Positions 35,987 through 51,536 of a stretch of 64,000 nucleotides of DNA are shown piece by piece. Below the pieces are notes generated by a model. It saw only the letters and a program-made list of their open reading frames with translations. It did no database searches and was not told the origin of the DNA. Numbering within the stretch: position 1 is the stretch's first letter; each line of letters starts with the position of its first letter. A program made the translations under genes and the position numbers. This DNA is from Microbacterium sp. ABRD28 (GTDB lineage Bacteria > Actinomycetota > Actinomycetes > Actinomycetales > Microbacteriaceae), in assembly GCF_003850245.1 (NCBI RefSeq), contig NZ_CP031015.1, positions 1,488,001-1,552,000 of the forward strand, given 5' to 3'.

Positions 35987-36592
35987 TCAGCCTTCATGAA
36001 CTTCGGACTCTCGGCGCTTGCAGTCCTTCGCGCGTCGGTAGTAGCTGGATCGGGACATCCCGAGATCACGCGCGACCTCGGTCACGGGCTCTCCGCTTCG
36101 GACGAGCCGGATCGCATTGTGGATCTGGCTGTCGGTGATGCGCTGTGGACGGCCGCCAAGGTTCTTGCCAGCGGCACGACGCTTGCTGATTGAATCCAGG
36201 ATGCGTTCGCGCTTGATCTCGTGTTCCATCTGCGCCAGCGCCGCCATAATGGTGAACACCATCGCCCCCATCGGCGTCGACGTATCCACGTCTCCGCCGC
36301 CCAGGTTCAAGACCCGGAGACCCGCCCCGCGGGTGCGGAGCTCATCCGCGAATTCGAGCATATTCTGCGTGGATCGCCCGAGTCTGTCCAATGTCGTAAT
36401 GACTAGCGTGTCGCCTTCGATGAGCGCTTCCACAGCCCGATCGAACTGAGGACGAGACGCGCGCGCACCGGAAACGCCGTGATCGACGTAAAGGTCGTCA
36501 CGTCGGACGCCCGCGGCGAGGATGTCCGCCTCTTGTCGGTCAGTCGATTGCTGCCTCGTCGATACCCGCGAGTATCCGATGAGCTTTTGCAT
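35987..36592 (-). CDS. Serine recombinase (resolvase/invertase family) at the island edge
   Basis: 201-residue small serine recombinase. The catalytic domain starts GYSRVSTRQQ with nucleophile Ser11, then LVITTLDRLGRSTQNML and MGAMVFTIMAALAQMEHEIKRER (long E-helix), ending with a C-terminal helix-turn-helix (PVTEVARDLGMSRSSYYRRA). Length and domains equal those of Tn3-type resolvases and Hin/Pin invertases. No tnpA or invertible segment accompanies it. It faces away from an array of gene modules separated by a repeated motif, and a partial inverted copy of that motif (36602-36613) is 10-20 bp before its start codon. I infer that it acts on those sites. Confidence 0.93.
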   Translation of the reverse strand: MQKLIGYSRVSTRQQSTDRQEADILAAGVRRDDLYVDHGVSGARASRPQFDRAVEALIEGDTLVITTLDRLGRSTQNMLEFADELRTRGAGLRVLNLGGGDVDTSTPMGAMVFTIMAALAQMEHEIKRERILDSISKRRAAGKNLGGRPQRITDSQIHNAIRLVRSGEPVTEVARDLGMSRSSYYRRAKDCKRRESEVHEG

Positions 36593-36995
36593 GGTGTCCT
36601 CCGATGTGTCTCGGAAGGGACGGCGAGTCCGTCGATTCCGCCCAAAGCCTGCGGCACATGGTTACGGGAATCCACAGCGATGCCCGCCTAGCGCTGTTGT
36701 ATTCCTCCCACCGAACTGCACCGCGGGGCTCGGCATGGCTGTCATCGTCGCCAACGGAGGCTCACTCTCGACGGGTCGTCAGCCGCCGCGACGTGTCGGC
36801 GATGCGTCGCGCAAGGTAAGCGTTACGAGACAGGTGGCTCCGCCAGCGGCCCGCGCAAGGGGCGCTTTCCTGTCGGTGGAGGTTGGGGGGCGCTTTGGAC
36901 TCAGGTTCCCGTTACTGACGGTCCAGGTGTGCCCATTGCTATGGTCGATGGTCACATCAGATGGACCCTTAGTCGTCCGAGGAAGGTGGCCGCAG
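36593..36995. other. Intergenic edge of the array: candidate primary recombination site region
   Basis: About 400 bp without a gene. At 36602-36613 the minus strand reads CGAGACACATCG, 12 bases identical to the right half of the site at 47432 (CGAGACACATCG). The first forward site is at 36818-36831, after which the first tandem unit and the promoter of its gene follow. In integrons the equivalent place would hold attI. Nothing else is recognised. Confidence 0.5.
36818..36831 (+). repeat. Module-junction site 1
   Basis: AAGCGTTACGAGAC. With its left flank GTCGCGCAAGG, the 26 bases form the best inverted repeat of all the sites: arms GTCGCGCAAGG and the complement of CGTTACGAGAC agree at 8 of 11 positions around a TAAG centre. 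Confidence 0.6.
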
Positions 36996-37673
36996 GTGCC
37001 TGAGCCAATGACACGGACGGGTGCGAAGCGTCGGCTACTGTCTTGGGTTCCGATCTCGATCGTCGCGCTGATCTGTCTCGGTTTCGTCGTGGCGGTGGTT
37101 TCGATGGAGAACTCGTGGTGGGTCGACGAGGATCGACCGGCAACTGCGGATCAGGAGGCGTCGGACGGCATGTCCGTGTTCACCGAAGCAGGAGTGGACT
37201 ACCTCACGCGCGAGGGCAGACTCCTTATGCGTGTGGGGTCGGGGTCACTGCCCAGCTCGGAGCTGGGACTCCAAGCAAATGAGACCCAAAGCTTTGAACC
37301 GATCGTTCCTATCGAGGCGGTCATTGTCGCGCCCGATGGTTCGTTCTACGTTGACCTGCTTCGATCCTTCACCATCACCACATCTCGGGGTGAGGTCGAG
37401 TCCGTACAGCTGGTGCGGGAGGCCAACGGCGCCTGGCTGACGGTATTTCCAAACTTGCAGCGCACGGCGAGGTTCTGGGGGTGGACAGACTCCGACCTTG
37501 AACAGCTGCAGCGCGATCTCACCGCCGCGTCTCACGAGGGGAACGGCAACCAGTACTCGGCTGAGCTTCCTGCGGTCGAGCACAATGGCGCACTGGTGTC
37601 CGCTCACGTCGATGTCGATCTGTCACAGTCGGAGATCACTGCAACCTTCCTCATCAGCCCGCTCGCTCAGTAA
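36996..37673 (+). CDS. Cassette membrane-anchored hypothetical protein, copy 1
   Basis: 225-residue protein, not recognised. One N-terminal TM (LLSWVPISIVALICLGFVVAVVS) follows a short basic segment, then an exported domain of about 180 residues (FTEAGVDYLTREGRLLMRVG, YVDLLRSFTITTSRGEVESV). It is a type II membrane protein by this pattern. GTG 36996 is chosen because GAGGAAGG lies 9 nt upstream; the ATG at 37008 has no SD. TATGGT just upstream may be the -10. The 3' end overlaps the convergent gene by 51 bp. Two further copies follow at 38830 and 40660. Confidence 0.75.
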   Translation: MPEPMTRTGAKRRLLSWVPISIVALICLGFVVAVVSMENSWWVDEDRPATADQEASDGMSVFTEAGVDYLTREGRLLMRVGSGSLPSSELGLQANETQSFEPIVPIEAVIVAPDGSFYVDLLRSFTITTSRGEVESVQLVREANGAWLTVFPNLQRTARFWGWTDSDLEQLQRDLTAASHEGNGNQYSAELPAVEHNGALVSAHVDVDLSQSEITATFLISPLAQ

Positions 37674-38258
37674 GCGTGAACTTGCCTTGTCAGAGCAAGG
37701 TCGACGAACGGCCCAGGCGATGAGTGTAAGGGTGAACGCGATCCCGGGCGCGTTCCATCGCTCGATGTAGTTGACGGGAACATTGCCGGCCCGAGCGCAG
37801 ATGCTACTCAAGCGCGTCGCAGCACGATCAGAATCGGCGGCAAAGCCAGGCGCGAGCGTCTCCATCCGCACCACATTGACCCCACGGACGACACCCTGTC
37901 CGGCTTGCATCGTATTCACCACGCCGCCCGGTGAGATCAGCATGACCACCGGCCGCACTGAGCGAGACCCATACCGGACGCGAGGAACACCACTCCCGGA
38001 AACGCTGATCTGCGACGACGCGGTAAAGGACACCGAGCGAAGCGGGTTACGAATAACGAACTCACCGTTGCGATAGCTCATGCTTGGATACGCCCATAGG
38101 ACCCAAATCACCCACAAGAGCAGCGCCGCCGGCGCAAGCACGGCACCGGGAGCCACGCGCGCCGGAAGCACAGCCGTCAACGCCGCGAGAAACCCAAAGC
38201 CCAACGGCAGCACAACGGCGAGTGACTCAGCGGCCGGAAGACGAAGCTCCCACTTCAC
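37623..38258 (-). CDS. Cassette PH-like membrane protein, copy 1 (frameshift-extended)
   Basis: 211-residue protein with two N-terminal TMs (LAVVLPLGFGFLAALTAVL; AALLLWVIWVLWAYPSM), a soluble part with PH-like character (YRNGEFVIRNPLRSVSFTAS, VVMLISPGG), and a C-terminal hydrophobic segment (IAFTLTLIAWAV). Compared with copy 3, one A is missing near the end (GACGAACGG against GACGAAACGG), so the frame runs on for 22 more codons antisense to the neighbouring gene. The 189-residue form of copy 3 is probably ancestral. GTG start with GGGAGAG upstream. Confidence 0.7.
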   Translation of the reverse strand: MKWELRLPAAESLAVVLPLGFGFLAALTAVLPARVAPGAVLAPAALLLWVIWVLWAYPSMSYRNGEFVIRNPLRSVSFTASSQISVSGSGVPRVRYGSRSVRPVVMLISPGGVVNTMQAGQGVVRGVNVVRMETLAPGFAADSDRAATRLSSICARAGNVPVNYIERWNAPGIAFTLTLIAWAVRRPCSDKASSRLLSERADEEGCSDLRL

Positions 38259-38434
38259 TCATCTCTCCCATCCGTGCGCTGGCAATAGGTCGACCCTATG
38301 CGACCAACGCTTGAAGGGGCTTTGCGCACGCCAGCAAGTGCGCGGGGCACTGACGGTAAGGCCGGCGGGCGACTCAAGAAGCGCCAAGAACAGCGTTTGC
38401 GCGACAGCGGTGCCCCGATTGGCCCTGACCGATG

Positions 38435-38653
38435 AGACACAAGAACGATCGGTGGATGTCGAATCGGTTGAGGGGTTGAGCGATTCCGTCGCGCTGCCTT
38501 CCGCTCGCACGCGAGTGTGCTGGAAGCCGACTCCGAATCGGCCGCCGCGCTACTCCTATTCGAGCCGTGCGGCGAGATCTTTGTCAGCATCCTCAAACGA
38601 GCGCGTTTCGACGCCGCCGACGCGCTCCGAAACCGGCCAGCGCAGTCGATCGG
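38435..38653 (+). repeat. Cassette-tail element, about 219 bp, copy 1
   Basis: Segment starting AGACACAAGAACGATCGG that forms the right end of each tandem unit and recurs in diverged form (roughly 85% by eye) at 51305-51522, where it again ends at a junction site. Position and repetition suggest a recombination-site flank comparable in place to the attC end of integron cassettes. A short frame (ESAAALLLFEPCGEIFVSIL) is kept in all copies, so a coding origin is possible. Confidence 0.65.
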
Positions 38654-38667
38654 AAGCGTTACGAGAC
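38654..38667 (+). repeat. Module-junction site 2
   Basis: AAGCGTTACGAGAC, identical to site 1, between units 1 and 2; left flank GCAGTCGATCGG. Confidence 0.6.
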
Positions 38668-38829
38668 AGGTGGCTCCGCCAGCGGCCCGCGCAAGGGGCG
38701 CTTTCCTGTCGGTGGAGGTTGGGGCGCTTTGGACTCAGGTTCCCGTTACTGACGGTCCAGGTGTGCCCATTGCTATGGTCGATGGTCACATCAGATGGAC
38801 CCTTAGTCGTCCGAGGAAGGTGGCCGCAG

Positions 38830-39507
38830 GTGCCTGAGCCAATGACACGGACGGGTGCGAGGCGTCGGCTACTGTCTTGGGTTCCGATCTCGATCGTCGC
38901 GCTGATCTGTCTCGGTTTCGTCGTGGCGGTGGTTTCGATGGAGAACTCGTGGTGGGTCGACGAGGATCGACCGGCAACTGCGGATCAGGAGGCGTCGGAC
39001 GGCATGTCCGTGTTCACCGAAGCAGGAGTGGACTACCTCACGCGCGAGGGCAGACTCCTTATGCGTGTGGGGTCGGGGTCACTGCCCAGCTCGGAGCTGG
39101 GACTCCAAGCAAATGAGACCCAAAGCTTTGAACCGATCGTTCCTATCGAGGCGGTCATTGTCGCGCCCGATGGTTCGTTCTACGTTGACCTGCTTCGATC
39201 CTTCACCATCACCACATCTCGGGGTGAGGTCGAGTCCGTACAGCTGGTGCGGGAGGCCAACGGCGCCTGGCTGACGGTATTTCCAAACTTGCAGCGCACG
39301 GCGAGGTTCTGGGGGTGGACAGACTCCGACCTTGAACAGCTGCAGCGCGATCTCACCGCCGCGTCTCACGAGGGGAACGGCAACCAGTACTCGGCTGAGC
39401 TTCCTGCGGTCGAGCACAATGGCGCACTGGTGTCCGCTCACGTCGATGTCGATCTGTCACAGTCGGAGATCACTGCAACCTTCCTCATCAGCCCGCTCGC
39501 TCAGTAA
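38830..39507 (+). CDS. Cassette membrane-anchored hypothetical protein, copy 2
   Basis: Second copy of the 225-residue single-TM protein; differs from copy 1 by Arg for Lys in the N-terminal TGARRRL stretch. The same GTG start and SD are kept. The longer open frame through the preceding tail exists only because the unit is tandemly repeated. Confidence 0.75.
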   Translation: MPEPMTRTGARRRLLSWVPISIVALICLGFVVAVVSMENSWWVDEDRPATADQEASDGMSVFTEAGVDYLTREGRLLMRVGSGSLPSSELGLQANETQSFEPIVPIEAVIVAPDGSFYVDLLRSFTITTSRGEVESVQLVREANGAWLTVFPNLQRTARFWGWTDSDLEQLQRDLTAASHEGNGNQYSAELPAVEHNGALVSAHVDVDLSQSEITATFLISPLAQ

Positions 39508-40092
39508 GCGTGAACTTGCCTTGTCAGAGCAAGGTCGACGAACGGCCCAGGCGATGAGTGTAAGGGTGAACGCGATCCCGGGCGCGTTCCATCGCTCGAT
39601 GTAGTTGACGGGAACATTGCCGGCCCGAGCGCAGATGCTACTCAAGCGCGTCGCAGCACGATCAGAATCGGCGGCAAAGCCAGGCGCGAGCGTCTCCATC
39701 CGCACCACATTGACCCCACGGACGACACCCTGTCCGGCTTGCATCGTATTCACCACGCCGCCCGGTGAGATCAGCATGACCACCGGCCGCACTGAGCGAG
39801 ACCCATACCGGACGCGAGGAACACCACTCCCGGAAACGCTGATCTGCGACGACGCGGTAAAGGACACCGAGCGAAGCGGGTTACGAATAACGAACTCACC
39901 GTTGCGATAGCTCATGCTTGGATACGCCCATAGGACCCAAATCACCCACAAGAGCAGCGCCGCCGGCGCAAGCACGGCACCGGGAGCCACGCGCGCCGGA
40001 AGCACAGCCGTCAACGCCGCGAGAAACCCAAAGCCCAACGGCAGCACAACGGCGAGTGACTCAGCGGCCGGAAGACGAAGCTCCCACTTCAC
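39457..40092 (-). CDS. Cassette PH-like membrane protein, copy 2 (frameshift-extended)
   Basis: Second copy of the 211-residue form, apparently identical to copy 1 including the single-base deletion that removes the ancestral stop and makes it overlap the forward gene by 51 bp. Confidence 0.7.
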   Translation of the reverse strand: MKWELRLPAAESLAVVLPLGFGFLAALTAVLPARVAPGAVLAPAALLLWVIWVLWAYPSMSYRNGEFVIRNPLRSVSFTASSQISVSGSGVPRVRYGSRSVRPVVMLISPGGVVNTMQAGQGVVRGVNVVRMETLAPGFAADSDRAATRLSSICARAGNVPVNYIERWNAPGIAFTLTLIAWAVRRPCSDKASSRLLSERADEEGCSDLRL

Positions 40093-40268
40093 TCATCTCT
40101 CCCATCCGTGCGCTGGCAATAGGTCGACCCTATGCGACCAACGCTTGAAGGGGCTTTGCGCACGCCAGCAAGTGCGCGGGGCACTGACGGTAAGGCCGGC
40201 GGGCGACTCAAGAAGCGCCAAGAACAGCGTTTGCGCGACAGCGGTGCCCCGATTGGCCCTGACCGATG

Positions 40269-40487
40269 AGACACAAGAACGATCGGTGGATGTCGAATCG
40301 GTTGAGGGGTTGAGCGATTCCGTCGCGCTGCCTTCCGCTCGCACGCGAGTGTGCTGGAAGCCGACTCCGAATCGGCCGCCGCGCTACTCCTATTCGAGCC
40401 GTGCGGCGAGATCTTTGTCAGCATCCTCAAACGAGCGCGTTTCGACGCCGCCGACGCGCTCCGAAACCGGCCAGCGCAGTCGATCGG
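40269..40487 (+). repeat. Cassette-tail element, copy 2
   Basis: Same tail element as at 38435-38653, ending at junction site 3. Confidence 0.65.
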
Positions 40488-40501
40488 AAGCGTTACGAGA
40501 C
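40488..40501 (+). repeat. Module-junction site 3
   Basis: AAGCGTTACGAGAC, between units 2 and 3; identical to sites 1 and 2. Confidence 0.6.
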
Positions 40502-40659
40502 AGGTGGCTCCGCCAGCGGCCCGCGCAAGGGGCGCTTTCCTGTCGGTGGAGGTTGGGGCGCTTTGGACTCAGGTTCCAGTGACGGCCCAGGTGTGCCCAT
40601 TGCTATGGTCGATGGTCACATCAGATGGACCCTTAGTCGTCCGAGGAAGGTGGCCGCAG

Positions 40660-41337
40660 GTGCCTGAGCCAATGACACGGACGGGTGCGAGGCGTCGGCT
40701 ACTGTCTTGGGTTCCGATCTCGATCGTCGCGCTGATCTGTCTCGGTTTCGTCGTGGCGGTGGTTTCGATGGAGAACTCGTGGTGGGTCGACGAGGATCGA
40801 CCGGCAACTGCGGATCAGGAGGCGTCGGACGGCATGTCCGTGTTCACCGAAGCAGGAGTGGACTACCTCACGCGCGAGGGCAGACTCCTTATGCGTGTGG
40901 GGTCGGGGTCACTGCCCAGCTCGGAGCTGGGACTCCAAGCAAATGAGACCCAAAGCTTTGAACCGATCGTTCCTATCGAGGCGGTCATTGTCGCGCCCGA
41001 TGGTTCGTTCTACGTTGACCTGCTTCGATCCTTCACCATCACCACATCTCGGGGTGAGGTCGAGTCCGTACAGCTGGTGCGGGAGGCCAACGGCGCCTGG
41101 CTGACGGTATTTCCAAACTTGCAGCGCACGGCGAGGTTCTGGGGGTGGACAGACTCCGACCTTGAACAGCTGCAGCGCGATCTCACCGCCGCGTCTCACG
41201 AGGGGAACGGCAACCAGTACTCGGCTGAGCTTCCTGCGGTCGAGCACAATGGCGCACTGGTGTCCGCTCACGTCGATGTCGATCTGTCACAGTCGGAGAT
41301 CACTGCAACCTTCCTCATCAGCCCGCTCGCTCAGTAA
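40660..41337 (+). CDS. Cassette membrane-anchored hypothetical protein, copy 3
   Basis: Third copy of the 225-residue protein; as copy 2 it has Arg in TGARRRL. The upstream region differs slightly, losing GTTACTGACGGT, which may alter promoter strength. Here the gene does not overlap its convergent neighbour. Confidence 0.75.
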   Translation: MPEPMTRTGARRRLLSWVPISIVALICLGFVVAVVSMENSWWVDEDRPATADQEASDGMSVFTEAGVDYLTREGRLLMRVGSGSLPSSELGLQANETQSFEPIVPIEAVIVAPDGSFYVDLLRSFTITTSRGEVESVQLVREANGAWLTVFPNLQRTARFWGWTDSDLEQLQRDLTAASHEGNGNQYSAELPAVEHNGALVSAHVDVDLSQSEITATFLISPLAQ

Positions 41338-41353
41338 GCGTGAACTTGCCTTG

Positions 41354-41923
41354 TCAGAGCAAGGTCGACGAAACGGCCCAGGCGATGAGTGTAAGGGTGA
41401 ACGCGATCCCGGGCGCGTTCCATCGCTCGATGTAGTTGACGGGAACATTGCCGGCCCGAGCGCAGATGCTACTCAAGCGCGTCGCAGCACGATCAGAATC
41501 GGCGGCAAAGCCAGGCGCGAGCGTCTCCATCCGCACCACATTGACCCCACGGACGACACCCTGTCCGGCTTGCATCGTATTCACCACGCCGCCCGGTGAG
41601 ATCAGCATGACCACCGGCCGCACTGAGCGAGACCCATACCGGACGCGAGGAACACCACTCCCGGAAACGCTGATCTGCGACGACGCGGTAAAGGACACCG
41701 AGCGAAGCGGGTTACGAATAACGAACTCACCGTTGCGATAGCTCATGCTTGGATACGCCCATAGGACCCAAATCACCCACAAGAGCAGCGCCGCCGGCGC
41801 AAGCACGGCACCGGGAGCCACGCGCGCCGGAAGCACAGCCGTCAACGCCGCGAGAAACCCAAAGCCCAACGGCAGCACAACGGCGAGTGACTCAGCGGCC
41901 GGAAGACGAAGCTCCCACTTCAC
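41354..41923 (-). CDS. Cassette PH-like membrane protein, copy 3 (probable original form)
   Basis: 189-residue version ending LTLIAWAVSSTLL, a complete C-terminal TM, 16 bp from the end of the convergent gene. The extra A at about 41371 compared with copies 1 and 2 explains the earlier stop. The compact fit with the neighbouring gene suggests that this is the ancestral frame. Confidence 0.72.
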   Translation of the reverse strand: MKWELRLPAAESLAVVLPLGFGFLAALTAVLPARVAPGAVLAPAALLLWVIWVLWAYPSMSYRNGEFVIRNPLRSVSFTASSQISVSGSGVPRVRYGSRSVRPVVMLISPGGVVNTMQAGQGVVRGVNVVRMETLAPGFAADSDRAATRLSSICARAGNVPVNYIERWNAPGIAFTLTLIAWAVSSTLL

Positions 41924-42163: not shown

Positions 42164-42215
42164 TGAATCGCCCCGGGTCTCGTGGAGGGTCTGATTCCCC
42201 GAGAGGATGATGACT

Positions 42216-42542
42216 ATGCCAGCGCAGAGGAAGTATCCGCCGGAGCTTCGTGAGCGTGCGATGCGGCTTGTGGCTGAGGCCCGGAAGGAGGATCCGGAGC
42301 TGTCGCTGAATCAGGCAGTGGTCCGGATCGGGCAGCGTGTCGGGGTCAATTCCGACACGCTGCGGGGTTGGTGCAAGCAGGCCGCGATTGACGCGGGCGA
42401 GCGTCCCGGGACGACGACGAGTGATGCGGCTCGGATCAAGCAGCTCGAGGCGGAGAACCGGGAGTTGAAGAGGGCGAACGAGATTCTGTTGGCGGCCTCG
42501 TCGTTCTTCGCGCGGGAGCTCGACCCGCGACTGCCGTGGTAG
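42216..42542 (+). CDS. IS3-family transposase OrfA
   Basis: 108-residue helix-turn-helix and leucine-zipper protein (YPPELRERAMRLVAEAR, VNSDTLRGWCKQA, IKQLEAENRELKRANEIL). Start MPAQRKYPPEL at 42216 is preferred over two ATGs at 42207/42210 because GAGAGG is then properly spaced. The gene overlaps orfB, which lies in the -1 frame. Confidence 0.92.
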   Translation: MPAQRKYPPELRERAMRLVAEARKEDPELSLNQAVVRIGQRVGVNSDTLRGWCKQAAIDAGERPGTTTSDAARIKQLEAENRELKRANEILLAASSFFARELDPRLPW

Positions 42543-43480
42543 TTCAGTTCATCGACGATCATCGTGACCGGTTCGGGGTCGAGCCGATCTGCCGGGTGCT
42601 CAGCGAGCATGCCGTGCCGATCGCTCCGTCCGGTTACTACGCGTTCAAAAAGCGGCCGCCGTCGGCGCGGGCGATCAGCGACGCGGAGATGATCGTGCAG
42701 ATCGAGAAGGTGTTCTGGGACCGAAAGCTCGGCCGCGGGATCAGCGGCGCCCGGAAGGTCTGGCACCTGCTGCGACGGCAGGGCACCGTCGTGGCCCGTT
42801 GCACGGTCGAACGGCTCATGCGGCAGCAGGGGCTGCGCGGGATCCGCCGCGGCAAGCAGTTCATCACCACCAAAGCGGACGGGGCGGCATTCCGGCCGCC
42901 GGATCACGTGCAGCGCTGCTTCCGCGCGAACCGGCCGAACGAGCTCTGGGTGGTCGACTTCACCTATGTTCCGACGTGGTCGGGGATGGCGTTCACCGCG
43001 TTCGTCACCGACGTGTTCTCCCGCAGGATCGTGGGCTGGCGGACCATGAACCGGATGCCCACCGACCTCCCGTTGGATGCGCTCGAGATGGCTCTCTGGA
43101 TCAGAGACCGCGCGGGCCAGGACGTCACCGGCGTCATCCAGCACTCGGATGCCGGATCGCAATACACCGCGATCCGCTACGCCGAGCGCCTCGCCGACGT
43201 CGGCGCGATCGCATCGATCGGAACGGTCGGCGACTCCTACGACAACGCCCTCGCCGAGACAGTTGTGGGTCTCTACAAGACCGAGTGCGTGAAGATCGAC
43301 GGCCCGTTCCGCACAGCCGACGAACTCGAGCTCGCCACGCTGTCCTGGGTGCACTGGTTCAACGAGAATCGGCTGCACTCATCGATCGGATACCTCACAC
43401 CGATCGAGAAGGAGAACCAGTACTACCGTGAGGTCAACCCCCAGAGCCAGCCGGCGCTGGGAGAACTCGCCCTCCACTAA
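42536..43480 (+). CDS. IS3-family transposase OrfB
   Basis: 314-residue DDE catalytic subunit: VVDFTYVPTW (first Asp), QHSDAGSQYT (second Asp) and ALAETVVGLYKTE (Glu), preceded by the HTH_21-like SGARKVWHLLRRQG. Probably made as an OrfAB fusion by -1 frameshifting in the 7-bp overlap, as in other IS3 elements; a GTG at 42536 is also possible. The TAA stop lies inside the right inverted repeat. The element looks intact and possibly active. Confidence 0.93.
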   Translation: MVVQFIDDHRDRFGVEPICRVLSEHAVPIAPSGYYAFKKRPPSARAISDAEMIVQIEKVFWDRKLGRGISGARKVWHLLRRQGTVVARCTVERLMRQQGLRGIRRGKQFITTKADGAAFRPPDHVQRCFRANRPNELWVVDFTYVPTWSGMAFTAFVTDVFSRRIVGWRTMNRMPTDLPLDALEMALWIRDRAGQDVTGVIQHSDAGSQYTAIRYAERLADVGAIASIGTVGDSYDNALAETVVGLYKTECVKIDGPFRTADELELATLSWVHWFNENRLHSSIGYLTPIEKENQYYREVNPQSQPALGELALH

Positions 43481-43653
43481 ACCCGGGGCGATTCAGCCTT
43501 CCGCTCGCACGCGAGTGTGCTGGAAGCCGACTCCGAATCGGCCGCCGCGCTACTCCTATTCGAGCCGTGCGGCGAGATCTTTGTCAGCATCCTCAAACGA
43601 GCGCGTTTCGACGCCGCCGACGCGCTCCGAAACCGGCCAGCGCAGTCGATCGG

Positions 43654-43667
43654 AAGGGATACGAGAC
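43654..43667 (+). repeat. Module-junction site 4
   Basis: AAGGGATACGAGAC at the end of the tandem array; to its left the third tail element, to its right the sortase module. The switch from CGTTACGAGAC to GGATACGAGAC at an identical left flank places the recombination breakpoint inside the motif. Confidence 0.65.
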
Positions 43668-43868
43668 AAACCGCGATCCGCAAGGTGCGGGCGCGTGACC
43701 CTTGCCGTGCGAATATCATCGGACGGGTCCTGCTCTGGAGTCGGATGGCGCGACGAGCTACCCACGGCCATGGACCACGTGAGCTACGGGCTTCGCGGCC
43801 CGATTCATCGCATTTTGATCGCCGTCGAAATCTAGCCCTGCGTGTGTACCTCTGTGAGTATCGAAAAG

Positions 43869-44663: not shown

Positions 44664-44724
44664 CCCGACAGCCGAGACCAGACGCAAAAGCGGGGGCTCG
44701 GACAATCACGCGTCGACTGGACAT

Positions 44725-44736: not shown

Positions 44737-44757
44737 GGACATGTGAGGCGGCGCGGG

Positions 44758-45333: not shown

Positions 45334-45878
45334 CCACTGACCAGAGCGGCGGCTCCTTCTTCGAGTCAGTGGTCAGCGCGAATGGGGCCGATGTCATGCG
45401 ATACCTCGAAGGGCGCGTACACGACGGCGGTGACGCCGCGGAAGCGTACGGCGAGACGTTGCTGACGGCGTGGCGCGCGCGACGACGAATGCCGACCGAT
45501 CCGGCGGAAGCCCGATTGTGGCTATTCGGAGTGGCACGCAAAGTGCTGCTGAACAACACACGTTCTCTCGCACGGCGGTCTGCGGCCACCCAGCGCCTGC
45601 GAGAGCGCATCACCGCTGCACCGCCGCCGCCGGCTTCAACCGACGCGGTGGAAGTTCGCGACGCCATCAAAGCCTTGCCGACTGAACTCGCAGACGTGAT
45701 CCGCCTCACCTACTGGGACGGGTTCACATCACACGAGATCGCTGACTTCCTAGGCATACCTGCGTCGACAGTGAGGACACGAATCAGCACCGCACGCGAA
45801 CTCCTCCGCACCGCCCTCGACCCCGCAGCCACGGCCAGGGATCAATCCACCGCACAGTCGCTATCATCCGAACCTTGA
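45330..45878 (+). CDS. ECF-type RNA polymerase sigma factor
   Basis: 182-residue sigma-70-family factor with region 2 (VMRYLEGRVHDGGDAAEAYGETLLTAW, LWLFGVARKVLLNN) and region 4 (LPTELADVIRLTYWDGFTSHEIADFLGIPASTVRTRI). Co-translated with the membrane protein before it. Together with the sortase gene this could form a module that senses and modifies the cell surface. The Pro/Ala linker between regions is short. Confidence 0.87.
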   Translation: MTTDQSGGSFFESVVSANGADVMRYLEGRVHDGGDAAEAYGETLLTAWRARRRMPTDPAEARLWLFGVARKVLLNNTRSLARRSAATQRLRERITAAPPPPASTDAVEVRDAIKALPTELADVIRLTYWDGFTSHEIADFLGIPASTVRTRISTARELLRTALDPAATARDQSTAQSLSSEP

Positions 45879-46211
45879 CGCCTTCTACCAGCGCCCGCAA
45901 GCAGATCCCGAGTGCGACAGGGGTGTAACGCAAGGCAAGGGATACGAGACATATCGCCTTGGAAGATTGCGAGCAGGGGCGCGCTTCGTCGCGGCGCCTC
46001 CGCGGTCGCGTCCTCTGGAGATGCCGAATCGCGGTAGCACCGCGGCGATCGATGACGCGCGACGCGCCTTCCGCTCCGGTCCTTCAATCTCCACACGGAG
46101 CAACGCTCCGAGCGATGTAGTTGACTGACGAGGAATGGTGCACCGCCAGGGACCACGCCGGCATCAATTCGTGCAGTTGTTGAACCAACGGGAAGACCAG
46201 AACGGGCAGAG
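45879..46211 (+). other. Gene-free module junction region
   Basis: 333 bp with no convincing gene. It holds the end of the sigma module (CCGAGTGCGACAGGGGTGTAACGC), site 5 and the leader of the next gene. Around 46105-46125 the minus strand can be read as VNYIARSVAP, reminiscent of the tail of the PH-like cassette protein, possibly a remnant. Confidence 0.4.
45937..45950 (+). repeat. Module-junction site 5
   Basis: AAGGGATACGAGAC preceded by GTAACGCAAGGC, close to the left arm of site 1. Followed by ATATCG. Upstream CCGAGTGCGACAG is shared with site 7. Confidence 0.6.
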
Positions 46212-46670
46212 ATGACATCGACACACGAGGACCGGGCCGAACGGGCCGCGCGTGAATTCGCTGACGCAGTGGTGGATTTGGTGGGAGCCGACGGTGAGTC
46301 GACGATCTCGACACCTGAGGCGGAGTTCGACGTTGTTGTGAAGATTTCCCCGCGAAGAGCGGACGCCGTTGCACTCGAGGTCATGATCTTCGGCACGGAG
46401 CAAGTCGTGGTCTATGCCCGCCGGCCGGCATTGGGTTGGTGGACGTTCGGCGGTACGACCGCCACGGCCGACGCTTGGGCTGTCATACAGCAGATAGTCG
46501 ATCGGGGCGGACAGGTGATCGTGGAGAAGCGGGGGAACTTCCTTCGTCATGGCATCGTTCGACTCCATGACACAGACGGCGCGCTGATTCAGTCAATGGA
46601 AGACGGCGGGGCCGGGCCCTGGAAACGGATCACCACGTTTCCTCCTTACCGAGTGCCGTCGTCAGCGTAA
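46212..46670 (+). CDS. Hypothetical protein, single gene of its module
   Basis: 152-residue acidic cytoplasmic protein without TM or signal. Segments AEFDVVVKISPRRADAVALEVMIFG and YARRPALGWWTFGGTT are notable but match nothing I recognise. GGGCAGAG precedes the ATG. It is the only gene between sites 5 and 6. Confidence 0.6.
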   Translation: MTSTHEDRAERAAREFADAVVDLVGADGESTISTPEAEFDVVVKISPRRADAVALEVMIFGTEQVVVYARRPALGWWTFGGTTATADAWAVIQQIVDRGGQVIVEKRGNFLRHGIVRLHDTDGALIQSMEDGGAGPWKRITTFPPYRVPSSA

Positions 46671-46806
46671 GACGCTTCGATCCCCCGCACGGTGGCAGTC
46701 AAAGGTGGCGGAACCGACGAACCGAGTTGAGCCAGCTGACGTTTACGGCTGAAGCGTGCGCTCCCGATGGGATCCGCCAGAGGGACGCCGAGCAGCACCG
46801 CAAGGC

Positions 46807-46820
46807 AAGGGATACGAGTC
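46807..46820 (+). repeat. Module-junction site 6
   Basis: AAGGGATACGAGTC preceded by ACCGCAAGGC. The site runs into the complement of the toxin stop codon (46819-46821), so the module boundary abuts the toxin gene exactly. Confidence 0.6.
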
Positions 46821-47076
46821 AGCGGTCGTAGATGTCGCGGCGGTGTCCTAGGGTGACGACGACCACCACGAGGATGTCGTCCTGGACGGTGTAGATGATG
46901 CGGTAGTTTCCGACGCGCACCCTGAGGCCGTCCCGGCCCTGTAGTGCCTTGGCTCCGGGCGGCCGCGGATCCTGACCGAGCAGCGCGATGGCGCCGCGGA
47001 TGCGGTCGCAGTCCTGGTGATCGATGCGCTTGAGCGCTCGAATAGCTGCCGGTCGGATTTCGATCCGGTAGCTCAC
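46819..47076 (-). CDS. RelE/ParE family toxin
   Basis: 85-residue toxin of the RelE superfamily: YRIEIRPAAIRALKRIDHQD, IRGAIALLGQDPRPPGAKAL, LRVRVGNYRIIYTVQDDILVVVVVTLGHRRDIY. The conserved basic residues and C-terminal HRRDIY are those of active RelE mRNA interferases. It follows its antitoxin with a 4-bp overlap. As a stability module it may help to keep the array. Confidence 0.9.
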   Translation of the reverse strand: MSYRIEIRPAAIRALKRIDHQDCDRIRGAIALLGQDPRPPGAKALQGRDGLRVRVGNYRIIYTVQDDILVVVVVTLGHRRDIYDR

Positions 47077-47321
47077 TCCCAGCCCAGGTCCTTCTTGACC
47101 TGGTTCCAGGGGATGTTCTCGCCTTCTTCAGCCATCGCTTCATCGAAGGCAGCCGCGTCCTCGGCGTCCTCGAGAGCCTCGAGCATGCGCTCATACTGCT
47201 CCGGACTCACCACCACTGCTGCGCGCTGACCGCGCCGTTCGATGAAGACCGCTTCCTTCTGGGAACGAGCGATCACGTCCGACAGATGGCTGCGGGCGTC
47301 TGCGACGCTGACACTCGACAT
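47073..47321 (-). CDS. Phd/YefM family antitoxin
   Basis: 82-residue antitoxin: SSVSVADARSHLSDVIARSQ, VFIERRGQRAAVVVSPEQYERM and an acidic C-terminal tail (EEGENIPWNQV) that would bind the toxin. ATG at 47321 is chosen because it matches the normal Phd N-terminus. The inverted repeat at 47330-47356 upstream is the probable autoregulatory operator. Confidence 0.9.
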   Translation of the reverse strand: MSSVSVADARSHLSDVIARSQKEAVFIERRGQRAAVVVSPEQYERMLEALEDAEDAAAFDEAMAEEGENIPWNQVKKDLGWE

Positions 47322-47329
47322 ACCGCAAG

Positions 47330-47356
47330 TGTACATCTATAGCGCAGTGATGTACA
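47330..47356 (-). promoter_or_regulatory. Inverted-repeat operator of the toxin-antitoxin pair
   Basis: TGTACAT (47330-47336) and ATGTACA (47350-47356) are exact complements separated by 13 nt, starting 9 bp before the antitoxin ATG. CTATAG in the centre may be part of the -10. This is the usual location for Phd-type autorepression. Confidence 0.6.
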
Positions 47357-47621
47357 TCAGGTGCCTCACCCACATCACTCCCATTAGCACGCGGACCGAT
47401 GCCGAGTGCGACAGCGGGCGTAGCGCGCGTGAAGGGATACGAGACACATCGTGCTGTTGTGGCCGGTGACGCGACCGGTGCCACGTGCTGGCCGGTCAGG
47501 TGCCATGGTTGAGGTTCAGGAGCCGTCGAGGGCGTAGCTCGCCGAGCGCGAAGCCGATCTGGTCCACCGGCTAGCGGTGCCGTCACCGCAAGGACAGCAA
47601 GCACCTCGCTGGCCCTGCCGA
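47357..47621 (+). other. Gene-free junction between toxin-antitoxin and PH-like modules
   Basis: Holds site 7 and about 180 bp to its right with many stops; a frame LAEREADLVHRLAV (47540-47580) looks like a coding scrap. No gene supported. Confidence 0.4.
47432..47445 (+). repeat. Module-junction site 7
   Basis: AAGGGATACGAGAC followed by ACATCG. CGAGACACATCG here equals the bases upstream of the serine recombinase gene (minus strand, 36602-36613). Left flank CCGAGTGCGACAGCGGGCGTAGCGC resembles that of site 5. Confidence 0.65.
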
Positions 47622-48206
47622 TCACTCCCGGTCAGCGGCGGCGCCCTCGGCGAAGGAATCAAGGGCATCCTCTAAGCCTTCTACGTCAGCGACGTCGTAG
47701 AAGGCGATGGGTGATCCTGGCCCAATGGCGGCAAAGAAATCGAGCCCGGTATTCGCGTATGTCCGCAGGCTTGCCATCCCCGGCAGTCCAGCAGTCGGTC
47801 CGACTTCCGCTCCGAAGACGACGTCAATATGAGTCCGGTTCGGATGTATATAGGCAGTCCTCTCCGAGAGCGGTAGATCTATCTGTTGCACACCTGAGGG
47901 ACCAACGATGATTGCTCGTCGGTCGGTTAGGAGGTAACGGGTCCGGCGCTTGCGTGCGGCCTTAACGAAGAATCGTCCGATGACGCCGTAGACGCCGAAC
48001 GCGACGAACAGAAGGCCGAACAGCCACATCAGGCGAGGAGCGGTCGACGAACTTGCAACAGCCACTGTCCAGAGGATGCTTACGGCCAACCACACGACGC
48101 TGAATGGCACGAAGAATCCATCCGCCCGGGTGAAATGCACCTGGGCGTCCGGCTGTCCTCGCCAGCGAACTACTTCGCCTTTGAGCATTCGAGGTTCGTT
48201 CGTCAC
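47622..48206 (-). CDS. PH-domain-like membrane protein
   Basis: 194-residue protein. LKGEVVRWRGQPDAQVHF at the N-terminus, two TMs (SVVWLAVSILWTVAVAS; LMWLFGLLFVAFGVYGVIG), then RRTRYLLTDRRAIIVGPSGVQQIDL, a motif common in bacterial PH (bPH) proteins. Function unknown. Start uncertain: GTG 48206 or ATG 48188, neither with a good SD. It recalls the PH-like protein of the tandem units in layout but not in sequence. Confidence 0.65.
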   Translation of the reverse strand: MTNEPRMLKGEVVRWRGQPDAQVHFTRADGFFVPFSVVWLAVSILWTVAVASSSTAPRLMWLFGLLFVAFGVYGVIGRFFVKAARKRRTRYLLTDRRAIIVGPSGVQQIDLPLSERTAYIHPNRTHIDVVFGAEVGPTAGLPGMASLRTYANTGLDFFAAIGPGSPIAFYDVADVEGLEDALDSFAEGAAADRE

Positions 48207-48529
48207 ACTGCAACCGTGCCACACCCGCACCTGACGACCTCACCTATCCACACTGGAATTGCGATCCTTCGAGACCCTGCGATCTTCGAGTTGTCGAAAG
48301 GAATGTGCGATCGAGGACTGGCTTTGGTACGGCGGCAACACGGCTGTCTACAGCGTCGCGAAATGGAGTGGCGGGTGTGCGTCCCCAACCTAGGATTGCG
48401 ACGTGCGACGAAGGAGCACGACTCAGCGGTGCCGAGGTGCGTGCCCTCGCAGGTATTCAGACCAGCGCAGCTTCTCGCCGACGGCTTGGCGTGGCGCCAC
48501 GCGGAATGGGGAAATAGACACCATGACGG
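48207..48529 (+). pseudogene. Decayed coding fragments
   Basis: No intact gene. On the plus strand about 48310-48394 a start-less frame with strongly GC-biased third positions reads EDWLWYGGNTAVYSVAKWSG and stops at TAG. A second scrap, EGARLSGAEVRALAGIQTSA, ends at TAG near 48517. They look like remains of one or two genes. Confidence 0.35.
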
Positions 48530-48706
48530 ATGCGTCCTTGCCAGTTGATCCGAGCGCCGGACGGCACCACCGCCTCCCAATCTCTTGCCTCACCACAGGA
48601 CGCCCTCCGGTGGCAGGAAGAGAACGCCGGCACCGTCCGCTACATCCCCGTCTACGAAGCAGACGGAACCACTCAGATTGGTCAATTCCGAGTCGGCGAC
48701 AACTAG
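48530..48706 (+). CDS. Small hypothetical ORF, possibly a gene fragment
   Basis: 58 codons from ATG 48530: MRPCQLIRAPDG, then SPQDALRWQEENAGTVRYIP and VYEADGTTQIGQFRVG. The C-terminal VYEADGTTQIGxF pattern looks like a real protein tail and third positions are GC-rich. It may be the end of a broken gene. No SD is evident. Confidence 0.4.
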   Translation: MRPCQLIRAPDGTTASQSLASPQDALRWQEENAGTVRYIPVYEADGTTQIGQFRVGDN

Positions 48707-48766
48707 AGCGCACGCGGATGGTGAGACGGTGCCGATCCCCGGAGCAACATCCAGCTGCAGCAAAGG

Positions 48767-48780
48767 AAGGGATACGGGAC
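48767..48780 (+). repeat. Module-junction site 8
   Basis: AAGGGATACGGGAC, one mismatch to the consensus, preceded by GCAGCAAAGG. About 190 bp without a gene separates it from the end of the next gene at 48971. Confidence 0.55.
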
Positions 48781-48970
48781 AGGTCTAGCCCCGAATCGGG
48801 CCACATGTCGCTTCCGCGCTACGACTTCACCTGACGGCCCTACGAGAAACCCGATGACGGGGAGGCGCGGCCTGCTAACGAATTCCCGCATCGTTGGGCA
48901 GCGCGCGGTCCGCGACCCCGATGCGATCGTGTCCGAGAGGGTCACGCCTTAGCTCGTTGCTCAAATGGGC

Positions 48971-49711
48971 TTAGCCCAGCACTGTGTCTGCGTATACGTC
49001 CACGCTCGACCCGTTCTGAACGAACTGAAGCACTGTTCCGATGCGGTAGAAGTTCAGAACGGATGACGGGCTCGCTTCGTCGACGATGACGGTTGTAGCG
49101 GGCGGAAACGCCGCCGCTCCGCAGTTAGTAACAACGGCGCCGCGGCCTGGGTCGCGCTCGGCATTGTCTGGCGTGAGAACGCTGAGACAGTCCGTCCCGG
49201 CGGCTGTGTCGGTGGAGGTCGATTCGCGGAAGATGACTGTGTAGCCAAGGAAATCGGCGTATCGCTTGTCTGCGGGCTGCGGTTCGCCGAGCGAGGAGGG
49301 CCAGGTACTGCTGTCTTGGGCCGGCAGGCTGGTGACGTGTTGCACGTCCGCGTAGGGCGACTCCGCTCGAACGAGTGCAGCGGTGGTGGCTGATGTGATG
49401 GCGGCGAAGACCACCGCGGCGGCCAGCGTGAGAGCAACAACGATCGGTGCGGGTGTGCGAATCGCCCTCCGTGACTCGGCGGCGTTCATCGATGATGTGG
49501 ACCGTTCGGTGTCGGTAGCTCTCGGACTGCGATCTGCTCCCAGATCGATCACGGGATGTATTCCGTCGCCCTGAAGCTCTTCGACCGTCGCGGCGTGACC
49601 TTCAAGTTGGCGAAGGCGTTGCTGCGCGGACGGATCGTTGCCGATGTCCGCGTGTGGTCCGTAGGCGCGCTCTCGTAGAAGCTTGAGCTCCTCGTCAGTG
49701 CGATCACTCAT
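48971..49711 (-). CDS. Hypothetical single-TM protein
   Basis: 246 residues. The cytoplasmic N-terminus MSDRTDEELKLLRERAYGP is a common opening of actinobacterial membrane proteins of unknown function. One TM follows (IVVALTLAAAVVFAAITSATTAALV), then an exported domain with two Cys (TDCLSVL, VTNCGAAAF). It is the last gene of a four-gene overlapping operon with a GntR regulator. The ATG overlaps the stop of the small ORF (ATGA). Confidence 0.72.
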   Translation of the reverse strand: MSDRTDEELKLLRERAYGPHADIGNDPSAQQRLRQLEGHAATVEELQGDGIHPVIDLGADRSPRATDTERSTSSMNAAESRRAIRTPAPIVVALTLAAAVVFAAITSATTAALVRAESPYADVQHVTSLPAQDSSTWPSSLGEPQPADKRYADFLGYTVIFRESTSTDTAAGTDCLSVLTPDNAERDPGRGAVVTNCGAAAFPPATTVIVDEASPSSVLNFYRIGTVLQFVQNGSSVDVYADTVLG

Positions 49712-49902
49712 CGGGCCGGTCCCCCAGTGCCGTGGTCATGCAGAAGTTGTAGCGTCGCATCGTCGTCTCCATCACTGATCTGGATGTGCCGGTCGAACGC
49801 TGAGTTCACGCGGAATGCCACGCTGCAGTGAAAGGTGGTGGAGCCGTGACCGAAAACGCACAGCGGACGTACACCAGTTGTCCGTGCCGCCACGATGTCC
49901 AT
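49708..49902 (-). CDS. Small ORF coupled to the GntR gene
   Basis: 64 codons, MDIVAARTTGVRPLCVFGHG to LLHDHGTGGPAR. The ATG overlaps the GntR stop (TAATG) and its TGA overlaps the start of the next gene (ATGA), which argues for translation. No recognisable domain; possibly only a coupling ORF. Confidence 0.45.
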   Translation of the reverse strand: MDIVAARTTGVRPLCVFGHGSTTFHCSVAFRVNSAFDRHIQISDGDDDATLQLLHDHGTGGPAR

Positions 49903-50258
49903 TAGGTCTGGGGGTCCCAGGTTGCGCGGAGAAGGCGGATGGCGTCGTCCAGTCCGACGTTGGCTGTTGCGCACTGGTGCGCGAGGGCTCTGGCGGCATC
50001 GAGGACGGCACGGTTCGTGGTCGAGGCTGATGGGCTGACGCGGGTGCTTCCGCCGGCCTTTGCGCGAAGGATGCCCTCGGACTCGAGTGCGCGGTATGCC
50101 TTCGCGACGGTTCCGGGGGCGACGGAAAGGTCGCGGGCGAGTTGGCGGACAGAGGGCAGCCGATCGTCCGCGGCGAGTTGGCCGGATGCGATCAGTCCGC
50201 GTAGTTGGTCGGCGATCTGATCCGAGGGCGGAGTAGATCCGGCCAGTTCAATGCGCAT
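49902..50258 (-). CDS. GntR-family transcriptional regulator, YtrA subfamily
   Basis: 118-residue winged-helix protein: SDQIADQLRGLIASGQLAADDRLPSVRQLARDLSVAPGTVAKAYRALESEGIL, with only a short C-terminal helical tail, as in YtrA-type GntR proteins. It starts inside the 3' end of the membrane-protein gene (11-bp overlap). It probably autoregulates through the 22-bp inverted repeat at 51185-51206. Confidence 0.88.
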   Translation of the reverse strand: MRIELAGSTPPSDQIADQLRGLIASGQLAADDRLPSVRQLARDLSVAPGTVAKAYRALESEGILRAKAGGSTRVSPSASTTNRAVLDAARALAHQCATANVGLDDAIRLLRATWDPQT

Positions 50259-51171
50259 GAGACGCCGTCCGGGTTCGCGTGGCCGCCAGCTGCTCGATAA
50301 GTACTCGGAACCAGAAGACGAACCCAGTTGTGATCGCGCAGGCGCCGAGTATGAGAAGTGCGGGGGCGAGGAACGCGAAGGGTGGGAAGACTGGCACGAG
50401 CGCGCCGTCCAGCGGAATCCCGGTGTTGAGGGCTGCGGTGTAGGCGAAGAAGATCAGCACAGCACCTAAATGGATGAGGCCGGCGCCAGACGCTGTCATG
50501 AGGATCGTCCGACTTCGGAACCGCCGGATCTCGAGGTCGTCGGCGGATTCTTCGGCGACTGGTGGCCGTGCAATCACCGCGAGCCCCAGCACCGCTGTTG
50601 CTGCAAGCACGGCTATCAGGAGGAGGCTCGGGCCGGAGAATGCCCATCCGTAGATCAGGCGGCCGACGGTACCGACTCCGGCATCCTGCATCCACATCGA
50701 GTACGCACCGTCCTCGTCTGGTTGCGATGCCACACCACCCACCACAGCGAGCGCCACAGCACTGACGGCGATGACGATCGCGAACGCTAACCACCCCCGC
50801 GGCGCGAACGTGGCCGGCGTCCGGCGAGCAAGATCCGCCACTGCTCGTCTCGGTCGCGGTGTGGCCGGAATGCATTGCAGCCCCGTGGCGATGATGCCGC
50901 CGACCAGCGAAGCTGTGAACTGCCACTCGCCAGGAATCATCGACAACCACCCGAACGGGCTAGGGAGGGTGACGACCTGGAACGGCCAGTTACCGCTGCC
51001 CAGAACCACAACCGCAAGCGTCACCGCGATCGCGAGCCCAACCACGGCCCACACGCGAGCGCGCGCCGGCAGATCAGCCACCACCCGGGGCCAGAGCCTG
51101 GTCAGCAGCATCGCCAGCACCAACCCGATCACCGCCGGCGCGATCATCAACGCGGCATACGTCGCATACAT
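50248..51171 (-). CDS. Polytopic membrane protein controlled by GntR
   Basis: 307 residues with about 7-8 TM helices (IAPAVIGLVLAMLLTRL, VWAVVGLAIAVTLAVVVLG, LAFAIVIAVSAVALAVVGG, LLLIAVLAATAVLGLAVIA and others). Not recognised; YtrA-type regulators often sit with ABC or DUF1648-like membrane genes, but no ATPase is present. ATG 51171 is chosen because the longer frame would translate the promoter/operator at 51185-51206. First gene of the operon. Confidence 0.72.
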   Translation of the reverse strand: MYATYAALMIAPAVIGLVLAMLLTRLWPRVVADLPARARVWAVVGLAIAVTLAVVVLGSGNWPFQVVTLPSPFGWLSMIPGEWQFTASLVGGIIATGLQCIPATPRPRRAVADLARRTPATFAPRGWLAFAIVIAVSAVALAVVGGVASQPDEDGAYSMWMQDAGVGTVGRLIYGWAFSGPSLLLIAVLAATAVLGLAVIARPPVAEESADDLEIRRFRSRTILMTASGAGLIHLGAVLIFFAYTAALNTGIPLDGALVPVFPPFAFLAPALLILGACAITTGFVFWFRVLIEQLAATRTRTASHAH

Positions 51172-51184
51172 CCGACACCACCAT

Positions 51185-51206
51185 CCGTACCAAGTTATAA
51201 GTACGG
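51185..51206 (-). promoter_or_regulatory. Operator/promoter of the GntR operon
   Basis: CCGTAC (51185-51190) and GTACGG (51201-51206) form a perfect inverted repeat with a 10-nt centre containing TATAAC on the minus strand, a good -10. It lies 14 bp before the first gene. The size suits a YtrA-like dimer. Confidence 0.55.
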
Positions 51207-51304
51207 TGAGTGTGTCACTGGCTTGATACAGAGTCAACGCCTGATCTCAACATTCACACGCGAATCCCGCTCACGCGATGACTCCAAGCGTTGCGCAAGG
51301 CCTT
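51207..51304 (+). other. Gene-free stretch between the GntR operon promoter and the last tail element
   Basis: About 100 bp; GCGTTGCGCAAGGCC (51288-51302) resembles the left arm of the junction sites (CGCAAGGC) but no GATACGAGAC follows. Nothing else seen. Confidence 0.35.
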
Positions 51305-51522
51305 AGACGCAGGAACGATCGGCGGACGTCGAACCGGTTGAGGCATTGAGCGATTCAGCCGCGCTGCCTTCCGCTCGCACGCGGGTGTGCTGGACGTCGA
51401 CTCCGAATCGGCCGCTGCGCTACTCCTATTTGAGCCGTGCGGCGAGATCTTTGTCAGCATCCTCAACGAGCGCGTTTCGACGCCCGCGACGCGCTCCAAA
51501 ACTGGTCAGTGCAAACGAACGG
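51305..51522 (+). repeat. Diverged cassette-tail element at the right end of the array
   Basis: 218 bp homologous (about 85% by eye) to the tail of the tandem units, from AGACGCAGGAACGATCGG onwards, and ending at a junction site in the same way. Since the modules to its left are unrelated to the tandem units, the tail travels independently of module content. Confidence 0.7.
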
Positions 51523-51536
51523 AAAAGATACGAGAC
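51523..51536 (+). repeat. Module-junction site 9, right end of the array
   Basis: AAAAGATACGAGAC followed by GGGTCGCGG. Last site before the chromosome resumes. Confidence 0.6.

Follow-up and report, generated by a model that had tools for sequence, protein, structure and literature searches.

An integron-like gene-cassette array in Microbacterium that is probably worked by small serine recombinases

Results

A recombinase gene and an array of nine sites

This study concerns a window of 64,000 nucleotides (positions 1488001-1552000) from the single-contig 3.27-Mb genome of Microbacterium sp. ABRD28 (G000 among the genomes compared here), in which the G+C content drops from ~71% to ~63% between about 36 and 52 kb. 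This part of the window holds a gene for a small serine recombinase, which we call REC, and a row of cassettes with nine copies of one short site at their borders, all on the same strand. Our comparisons with other genomes suggest that the region is very probably an integron-like gene-cassette array worked by small serine recombinases, either in cis or in trans. Its parts are the following (window coordinates; ORF, open reading frame):

35987..36592, minus strand: REC, small serine recombinase of the resolvase/invertase family, 201 aa, transcribed away from the array
36607..36615, plus strand: accessory half-site TGTCTCGGA, at -23 from the REC start
36805..36832, plus strand: site 1, 28 bp, centre AA; opens the array at 240 bp upstream of REC and passes the dyad test
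36818..38653, plus strand: cassette A, copy 1; convergent ORFs, one ending at 37673 (plus), the other spanning 37623-38258 (minus)
38641..38668, plus strand: site 2, 28 bp, centre AA
38654..40487, plus strand: cassette A, copy 2; direct repeat, spacing 1834
40475..40502, plus strand: site 3, 28 bp, centre AA
40488..43653, plus strand: cassette A, copy 3; split by an IS3-family element
42164..43495, plus strand: IS3-family insertion sequence; ORFs 42207-42542 and 42536-43480, with HTH_Tnp_1 and rve domains
43641..43668, plus strand: site 4, 28 bp, centre AA
43654..45936, plus strand: cassette B; class E sortase 43842-44663, small ORF 44743-45333, extracytoplasmic function (ECF) sigma factor 45330-45878
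45924..45951, plus strand: site 5, 28 bp, centre AA; passes the dyad test
45937..46806, plus strand: cassette C; ORF 46212-46670, no match in the family scan
46794..46821, plus strand: site 6, 28 bp, centre AA; GAGTCA variant that travels with cassette D
46807..47431, minus strand: cassette D; ParE-type toxin 46819-47076, Phd/YefM antitoxin 47073-47336
47419..47446, plus strand: site 7, 28 bp, centre AA
47432..48766, minus strand: cassette E; ORF 47622-48230, whose sole match (PuhB) is far below the cut-off
48754..48781, plus strand: site 8, 28 bp, centre AA
48767..51522, minus strand: cassette F; ORF 48971-49711, GntR regulator 49902-50258, ORF 50248-51237
51510..51537, plus strand: site 9, 28 bp, centre AA; last array site

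An initial annotation of the region had reported nine copies of a 14-base motif, each between unrelated gene modules, and had read them as recombination sites of cassettes shuffled by a serine-type enzyme. All nine copies are present at the positions that it gave and all lie on the plus strand: At up to 2 mismatches, the interval 35987-51536 holds 9 matches on the plus and 0 on the minus strand, and the same count in 200 dinucleotide shuffles averaged 0.07 and never exceeded 2. A scan of the entire window at up to 3 mismatches gave 10 matches, compared with 3.68 expected, of which the tenth lies at 17844. In the whole 3.27-Mb genome, up to 2 mismatches are found at 24 places (9 in the array and 15 elsewhere; 6 for a reversed control pattern), and the array holds 5 of the 6 places with 0 or 1 mismatch, the rest of the genome 1. 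Good matches are therefore concentrated in the array and not scattered genome-wide. Two parts of the initial annotation had to be revised. The distinct junctions number 8, not 9, because the copies at 36818, 38654, 40488 and 43654 border one ~1834-bp unit that is present three times, and the motif leaves out the left half, also conserved, of what is a 28-bp site composed of a 13-bp half, AA and another 13-bp half.

Anatomy of the 28-bp site

Sites collected at up to 3 mismatches from the five genomes with such arrays (see below) amounted to 44, of which 43 are distinct; the match at window position 17844 was dropped. Across these 43, the left half, which unlike the right half played no part in picking the sites, is unevenly conserved from -12 to -1 (at most 0.46 bit further left), more weakly than the centre and right half, whose conservation reaches +14. 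Flanking GATCCCGAGTGCGACAGGGG (left) and GGTCGTGATCCGAGA (right) recur at many sites and are compatible with extra half-sites.

When the 43 sites were folded with RNA energy parameters, their mean z-scores in four folding windows were -0.22, -0.38, -0.58 and -0.12, compared with -0.08, -0.47, 0.06 and 0.12 for control windows. The sites thus fold like controls in three of the four and slightly better in one (-0.58 vs 0.06), which lends little support to attC-like sites. A reading as integron attC sites with ATCCC/GGGAT and TGCG/CGCA hairpins was dropped, these hairpins being no better than shuffles or controls except slightly in that one window.

Cassette borders and switches of neighbours

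Cassettes shared between species with other neighbours bear out the expectation that module borders coincide with the motif. Out of 17 homologous blocks of at least 300 bp between array genomes, 7 end no more than 15 bp from a core in both genomes, whereas 1000 sets of random cores gave a mean of 0.007 and a maximum of 1 such block. Cores match at both ends of cassette D compared with G132 (94.5% identity over 641 bp; alignment ends at -1 and +14 from the cores).

Among 946 site pairs, which are not independent of each other, the right flank alone is common in 7, the left alone in 11 and both in 1. Six of the 7 right-shared pairs are free of core mismatches from position 0 onward, and in 4 the first left-side difference is at -1; in 4 of the 11 left-shared pairs, the first right-side difference is at +2. 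With first differences at -1 and +2, just the two central A bases are therefore common to all, and flank identity switches inside this central AA dinucleotide. Judged by these comparative breakpoints, crossover falls within a 2-bp centre, as is typical of small serine recombinases.

REC and the dyads upstream of its relatives

REC combines a catalytic domain (PF00239, E=1.5e-37) with a C-terminal helix-turn-helix (HTH_7, E=3.9e-7) in ~200 aa and aligns over nearly its full length to solved structures, of which a 193-residue DNA-invertase (E=1.6e-32) is nearest, followed by the Tn3 and gamma-delta resolvases. The inverted partial motif copy that had been noticed just before the gene is real: It is the half-site TGTCTCGGA at -23, and a similar half-site with at most 1 mismatch stands at -21 to -25 in 7/7 close REC homologues, although under a stricter pattern 6 of these 7 pass and the copy of the window itself fails.

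A search of 366 Microbacterium genomes for REC relatives at E 1e-30 or better gave 52 matches in 44 genomes, and 30 of these loci entered a comparison of upstream dyads. Seven homologues with 78-84% identity (in G114, G304, G175, G358, G070, G115 and G355) have a 28-bp dyad with array-type half-sites and the centre TA 151-175 bp upstream. G114 also has a broken eighth homologue (79%), which is likewise preceded by a TA-centred dyad. For the window's REC, array site 1 serves as the upstream dyad, at -240 and with the centre TT/AA. A cognate dyad hence lies upstream of 9/9 REC genes with 78-100% identity (the window's own included), as it does for 7 of 8 plasmid genes examined (see below). Of 22 distant relatives, one has no upstream sequence, and a dyad, of another sequence, was found for 1 of the other 21. 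As background, the dyad occurs 0 times in 45 kb of the window outside the array and 0 times in 122 kb of rlmN loci. The half-sites of the array had been recognized as resolvase-type from the outset, and this holds in that TGTCTCGTA recurs in the dyads of all nine close relatives; the array half-site is thus that of the upstream control regions of the REC clade. Site 1 is the counterpart of the dyad upstream of the REC homologues and so attI-like.

The REC gene locus L080 shares its left flank with L085 (100%) and its right flank with L081 (100%), joined at the TA centre. By its sequence, this junction preserves a natural recombination event at the centre of the REC clade's own site.

Sister arrays in other Microbacterium genomes

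With at most 1 mismatch, the 15-mer AAGGGATACGAGACA is present in 24 of the 366 Microbacterium genomes (the window's included). Five of them have at least 3 matches on a single strand (G000 5, G132 9, G135 3, G254 4, G262 9), which are clustered bar one lone copy in G254, so that sister arrays exist in 4 of the 365 other genomes. G282 was left out, its 5 matches being a 30-bp tandem repeat, and reversed AAGGGATACGAGACA gave a single match in each of 5 genomes. As to whether the motif clusters next to homologues of the recombinase, a check proposed with the initial annotation, a small resolvase stands beside the cassettes in one of the five AA arrays, that of the window, and in none of the other four.

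In G132, G135 and G254, the array begins 250-300 bp upstream of rlmN (RlmN ~98% identical), and the cassette contents differ between these related flanks. The stretch from rlmN to the first site keeps variants of the REC-like accessory half-sites in all three genomes; it is res-like and holds variants of TGTCTCGTAAGG and TTGCGACACA..GTTACGAGA. By its position and half-sites, this leading region may be analogous to attI. The broader idea that rlmN always carries an attI site fails, since at 29 further Microbacterium rlmN loci neither a core within 1.5 kb nor TGTCTC-type half-sites are present.

Several single observations belong to these genomes. One nearly symmetric AA site (L032, G132:C1:532032) lies on the strand opposite to the rest of the G132 array and starts a stretch 96% identical to G254:3490468-3491442. 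The lone motif copy of G254 at 412058 is near a PF00239 fragment at 411166, away from the array. Two adjacent PF00239 pieces at G000:C1:643795-644203 are probably a broken small resolvase gene, around which no 28-bp core was found.

Searched in 84,980 species genomes, which may leave out the window's own and near genomes, a 21-letter core pattern was found in two Microbacterium genomes (three stretches) and in one Mesorhizobium stretch, taken as chance. Neither phage records (queried with bases 36400-38700 only) nor viral contigs yielded a match. Plasmid DNA matches to 36500-44000 all fall within the IS3 element among the best 20 of 532 records, and those to 44000-51700 are four and short.

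Sites with AT and TA centres, other genera and plasmids

A site search that left the centre free returned 15 palindromic sites in 8 of the 366 genomes, and all 15 have AT (11) or TA (4) in the centre. AT-type sites are inverted repeats right up to the central 2 bp, and AT/TA sites form small arrays as well, e.g., on G033 contig 31 (TA, AT, AT, AT, 0.7-0.9 kb apart). In a family sample of 319 genomes, the exact right half-site occurs in 6, 5 of which come from 4 other genera: G548 has eight AT sites spread over 8.6 kb between terminal TA sites, and G621 encodes a REC relative (73%) whose upstream site, at a distance of 150 bp, is AT-centred. In a set of 42 AT/TA sites (29 AT and 13 TA, after removal of three dyads with a different centre), pairs that share only one flank have the same centre in 12/12 cases, a modest test, given that more than half of random pairings would agree and that pairs are not independent of one another. 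It suggests that recombination may require a matching centre.

At some cassette borders, TA- and AT-centred 28-bp sites are paired ~60-70 bp apart:

L192 (G548): 5114/5180 and 11429/11495
L193: 8154/8213
L194: 8325/8393

REC relatives with 60-84% identity are also found on 29 plasmid records, e.g., of Arthrobacter, Kocuria and Clavibacter; the matches listed (the best 25 of 29) come from ten genera, which we take to be Micrococcales. Seven of the 8 that were examined have a dyad 155-186 bp upstream, with the centre TT in three (two Arthrobacter, one Pseudarthrobacter) and TG, TA, AT and AT in the others, while the eighth (Citricoccus) has a half-site at -21 only; away from these genes, the dyad test gave 2 matches in ~117 kb. 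A TT centre is AA on the other strand, as in the array of the window, and the plasmid relatives are candidates to supply the enzyme, in trans, to arrays that have no recombinase gene of their own. On three Arthrobacter and Pseudarthrobacter plasmids (L205, L206, L207), the REC relative with its TT-centred site has cargo genes as neighbours at up to 7 kb, among them genes for resistance to chromate, copper or mercury.

Cassette contents and flanks

The ORFs of cassette A match no family in a Pfam scan. Its three copies (~1834 bp) share 99.4-99.7% mutual identity, and the cassette is 64.6% identical in nucleotides to G262:C6 402143-403322, which is itself flanked by two sites. The IS3 element in the third copy has imperfect terminal inverted repeats, GCC at both edges as an apparent 3-bp duplication and an ALIL pseudoknot (Rfam) at 42500-42628; it is the only transposase among the ORFs of the window that were scanned (ORFs of other arrays lay outside that scan). 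In cassette B, the small ORF has no family in the domain scan, and the sigma-factor ORF has related ORFs in the arrays of G132, G254 and G262. The GAGTCA variant of site 6 is also found at G132:519873 and G254:3496953, each time with cassette D to its right. PADLOC reported no defence system in the region and one weak helix-turn-helix match.

A block of 170-240 bp that ends at the core is common to the ends of otherwise different cassettes, and its left border does not lie at a site:

Window: 38496-38668, 40330-40502, 43496-43668 and 51366-51538
G132: 540373-540555 and 541030-541265

In the right flank of the array, a 68-bp stretch (51600-51666) is 79% identical to 34414-34481, the 3' end of a CAAX-protease-like gene left of the array. 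The flank gene 51704-52519 was absent from 87 other genomes searched (E up to 1e-40), and no empty site can therefore be read for this locus.

Discussion

How the array may work

The central proposal of the initial annotation, recombination sites and cassettes shuffled by a serine-type enzyme, is supported and came through the tests that had been set out for its refutation. Serine integrases, as passages of PMC4111918 describe them, make staggered breaks around a central dinucleotide that needs to match. By a comparable route, a dimer of a REC-clade enzyme would bind each 28-bp site, cut around its 2-bp centre and re-join half-sites where the dinucleotides pair, so that AA sites recombine with AA sites. 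Two direct AA sites would release a cassette as a circle, which could be taken up again by a different AA site, with preference for the leading site that adjoins REC (in the window) or lies upstream of rlmN (in other species), where the flank with its extra half-sites would act like res or attI. As AA is not a palindrome, i.e., not its own complement, insertion would be directional and the array would come to lie on one strand, and arrays of different compatibility groups (AA, AT or TA) would stay separate. REC would be encoded in cis, as in the window, or brought in on plasmids. Because four AA arrays have no adjoining resolvase and close homologues are plasmid-borne, a REC-type enzyme may normally act in trans.

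With a fair but lesser degree of confidence, we would extend this picture to a "serine integron", a gene-capture platform of Micrococcales that would have evolved independently of integrons, with plasmid- or chromosome-borne small serine recombinases that would cut out, exchange and insert promiscuous cassettes and with 28-bp sites whose central dinucleotide (AA, AT or TA) would be a code of both compatibility and orientation and with TT/AA plasmids as cassette vehicles.

Evidence to set against this interpretation

Several findings weigh against a cassette array worked by small serine recombinases. Its support is wholly comparative, and the recombination reaction was never observed. Ten of the 17 homologous blocks end inside cassettes, and one alone has cores at both ends. 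Among the right-shared pairs, one (G135) differs at +3; left-shared pairs differ within the left half as well (e.g., at -4 and -6), as expected of diverged copies, and one of them is shifted by an indel and uninformative. The conservation of the right half is biased, the sites having been selected on it, and just 2 of the 9 array sites of the window pass the dyad test because left halves are weak or degenerate. To the four AA arrays without a neighbouring resolvase, one may add the AT array of G548, with no REC relative in 54 kb and a lone one (39%) on another contig. All eight close chromosomal REC homologues have TA and not AA in the centre of their dyad. Classical resolvases favour excision over integration, and capture of cassettes, as distinct from their loss, stays hypothetical for the small resolvases considered here.

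Possible, if somewhat less than even in our estimation, is that cassettes are moved by REC-clade enzymes from incoming plasmids and that the window's REC is a passenger, whose upstream site recombined into the edge of the array. This overlaps with our own explanation, which allows action in trans, and it draws on the 29 plasmid records, on the array-compatible TT (=AA) site in 3 of the 8 relatives examined, on the four of five AA arrays without a resolvase in cis and on L080, L081 and L085, where REC sites have recombined with other DNA. The window speaks for a resident enzyme in that its layout is integron-like, with a divergent enzyme gene and then the first site, and in that the REC frame is open and keeps its half-site at -23.

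We consider it very improbable that a tyrosine recombinase works the array, whether XerC/XerD, by analogy with dif modules, or an integron integrase that acts on attC-like folds. The dif site is likewise 28 bp long by its description in PMC6449649, and PF00589 genes occur in each of the five array genomes (in G000 there are exactly two, which would fit XerC and XerD), but no PF00589 match (E up to 0.001) lies near any of the five AA arrays, flank switches are confined to 2 bp as opposed to the 6-bp central region of dif, in AT-type sites the inverted repeat extends as far as the central 2 bp, and sites fold like controls in all but one of the folding windows, with a slight advantage there. Least likely of all is that the units were assembled by transposition or by homologous recombination between repeats, with the motif as a terminator or some regulatory element: Homologous recombination is indeed conceivable for the tandem cassette A copies and for the 170-240-bp shared block, one IS3 element is present and 10 of the 17 homologous blocks stop elsewhere than at cores, yet apart from the shared block unrelated cassettes have only the site and a weak flank in common, flank switches land on the same two bases, and the IS3 element is the sole transposase among the scanned ORFs of the window.

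Significance and relation to known systems

Searches of the open PubMed Central (PMC) literature by titles and starts of abstracts (subscription papers and bioRxiv lay outside this scope) listed no serine-recombinase cassette array, and relative to the papers listed we rate a serine-worked cassette array as a new kind of system, even if its enzyme belongs to a known family. To our knowledge, known cassette-array systems (integrons and dif modules) use tyrosine recombinases, and few integrons are known in actinobacteria. If true, our interpretation would mean that evolution has solved modular gene capture a second time, in actinobacteria, and that bacteria have another way to collect and swap genes. 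It would also explain islands of unrelated small genes in Microbacteriaceae such as toxin-antitoxin pairs, sigma factors and sortases, and a short, dinucleotide-coded set of sites with a small enzyme could serve ordered DNA assembly.

The likeness to integrons consists of unrelated cassettes with one site in the same orientation between each, an attI-like leading region with extra half-sites and, in the window, a divergent recombinase gene at the leading edge; that the cassettes are mobile, with one site each, is judged from interspecies comparison, not from observed mobility. The recombinase in cis is of the serine family, as opposed to the tyrosine integrase of integrons, and no PF00589 gene accompanies the five AA arrays. 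The sites, 28-bp dyads that switch within 2 bp, show no clear fold of the attC type, so far as RNA energy parameters tell of folded single strands.

The Xer/dif (pdif) modules of Acinetobacter are similar in that 28-bp dyads bound modules of variable genes and the enzyme is not encoded in the module. By its description in PMC6449649, dif is an 11-6-11 site for XerC and XerD and is thereby set apart from the 13-2-13 sites found here, which have half-sites of a serine resolvase clade, a switch within 2 bp and, in the AT type, half-sites that reach the 2-bp centre. The AA sites are moreover in direct orientation, with G132:532032 as the one exception.

The res sites of gamma-delta and Tn3 have TGTC..TA half-sites and consist of a 28-bp crossover site with a 2-bp centre and further half-sites upstream of the gene. 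The sites described here share this type of half-site, the length, the upstream half-sites and the 2-bp centre, but many of them are dispersed over cassette borders at one locus, whereas there is one res per replicon. In multi-site DNA inversion systems, a small serine invertase has several crossover sites, which is a further likeness, and inverts segments of fixed content; the cassettes described here, in contrast, differ between species and change their neighbours.

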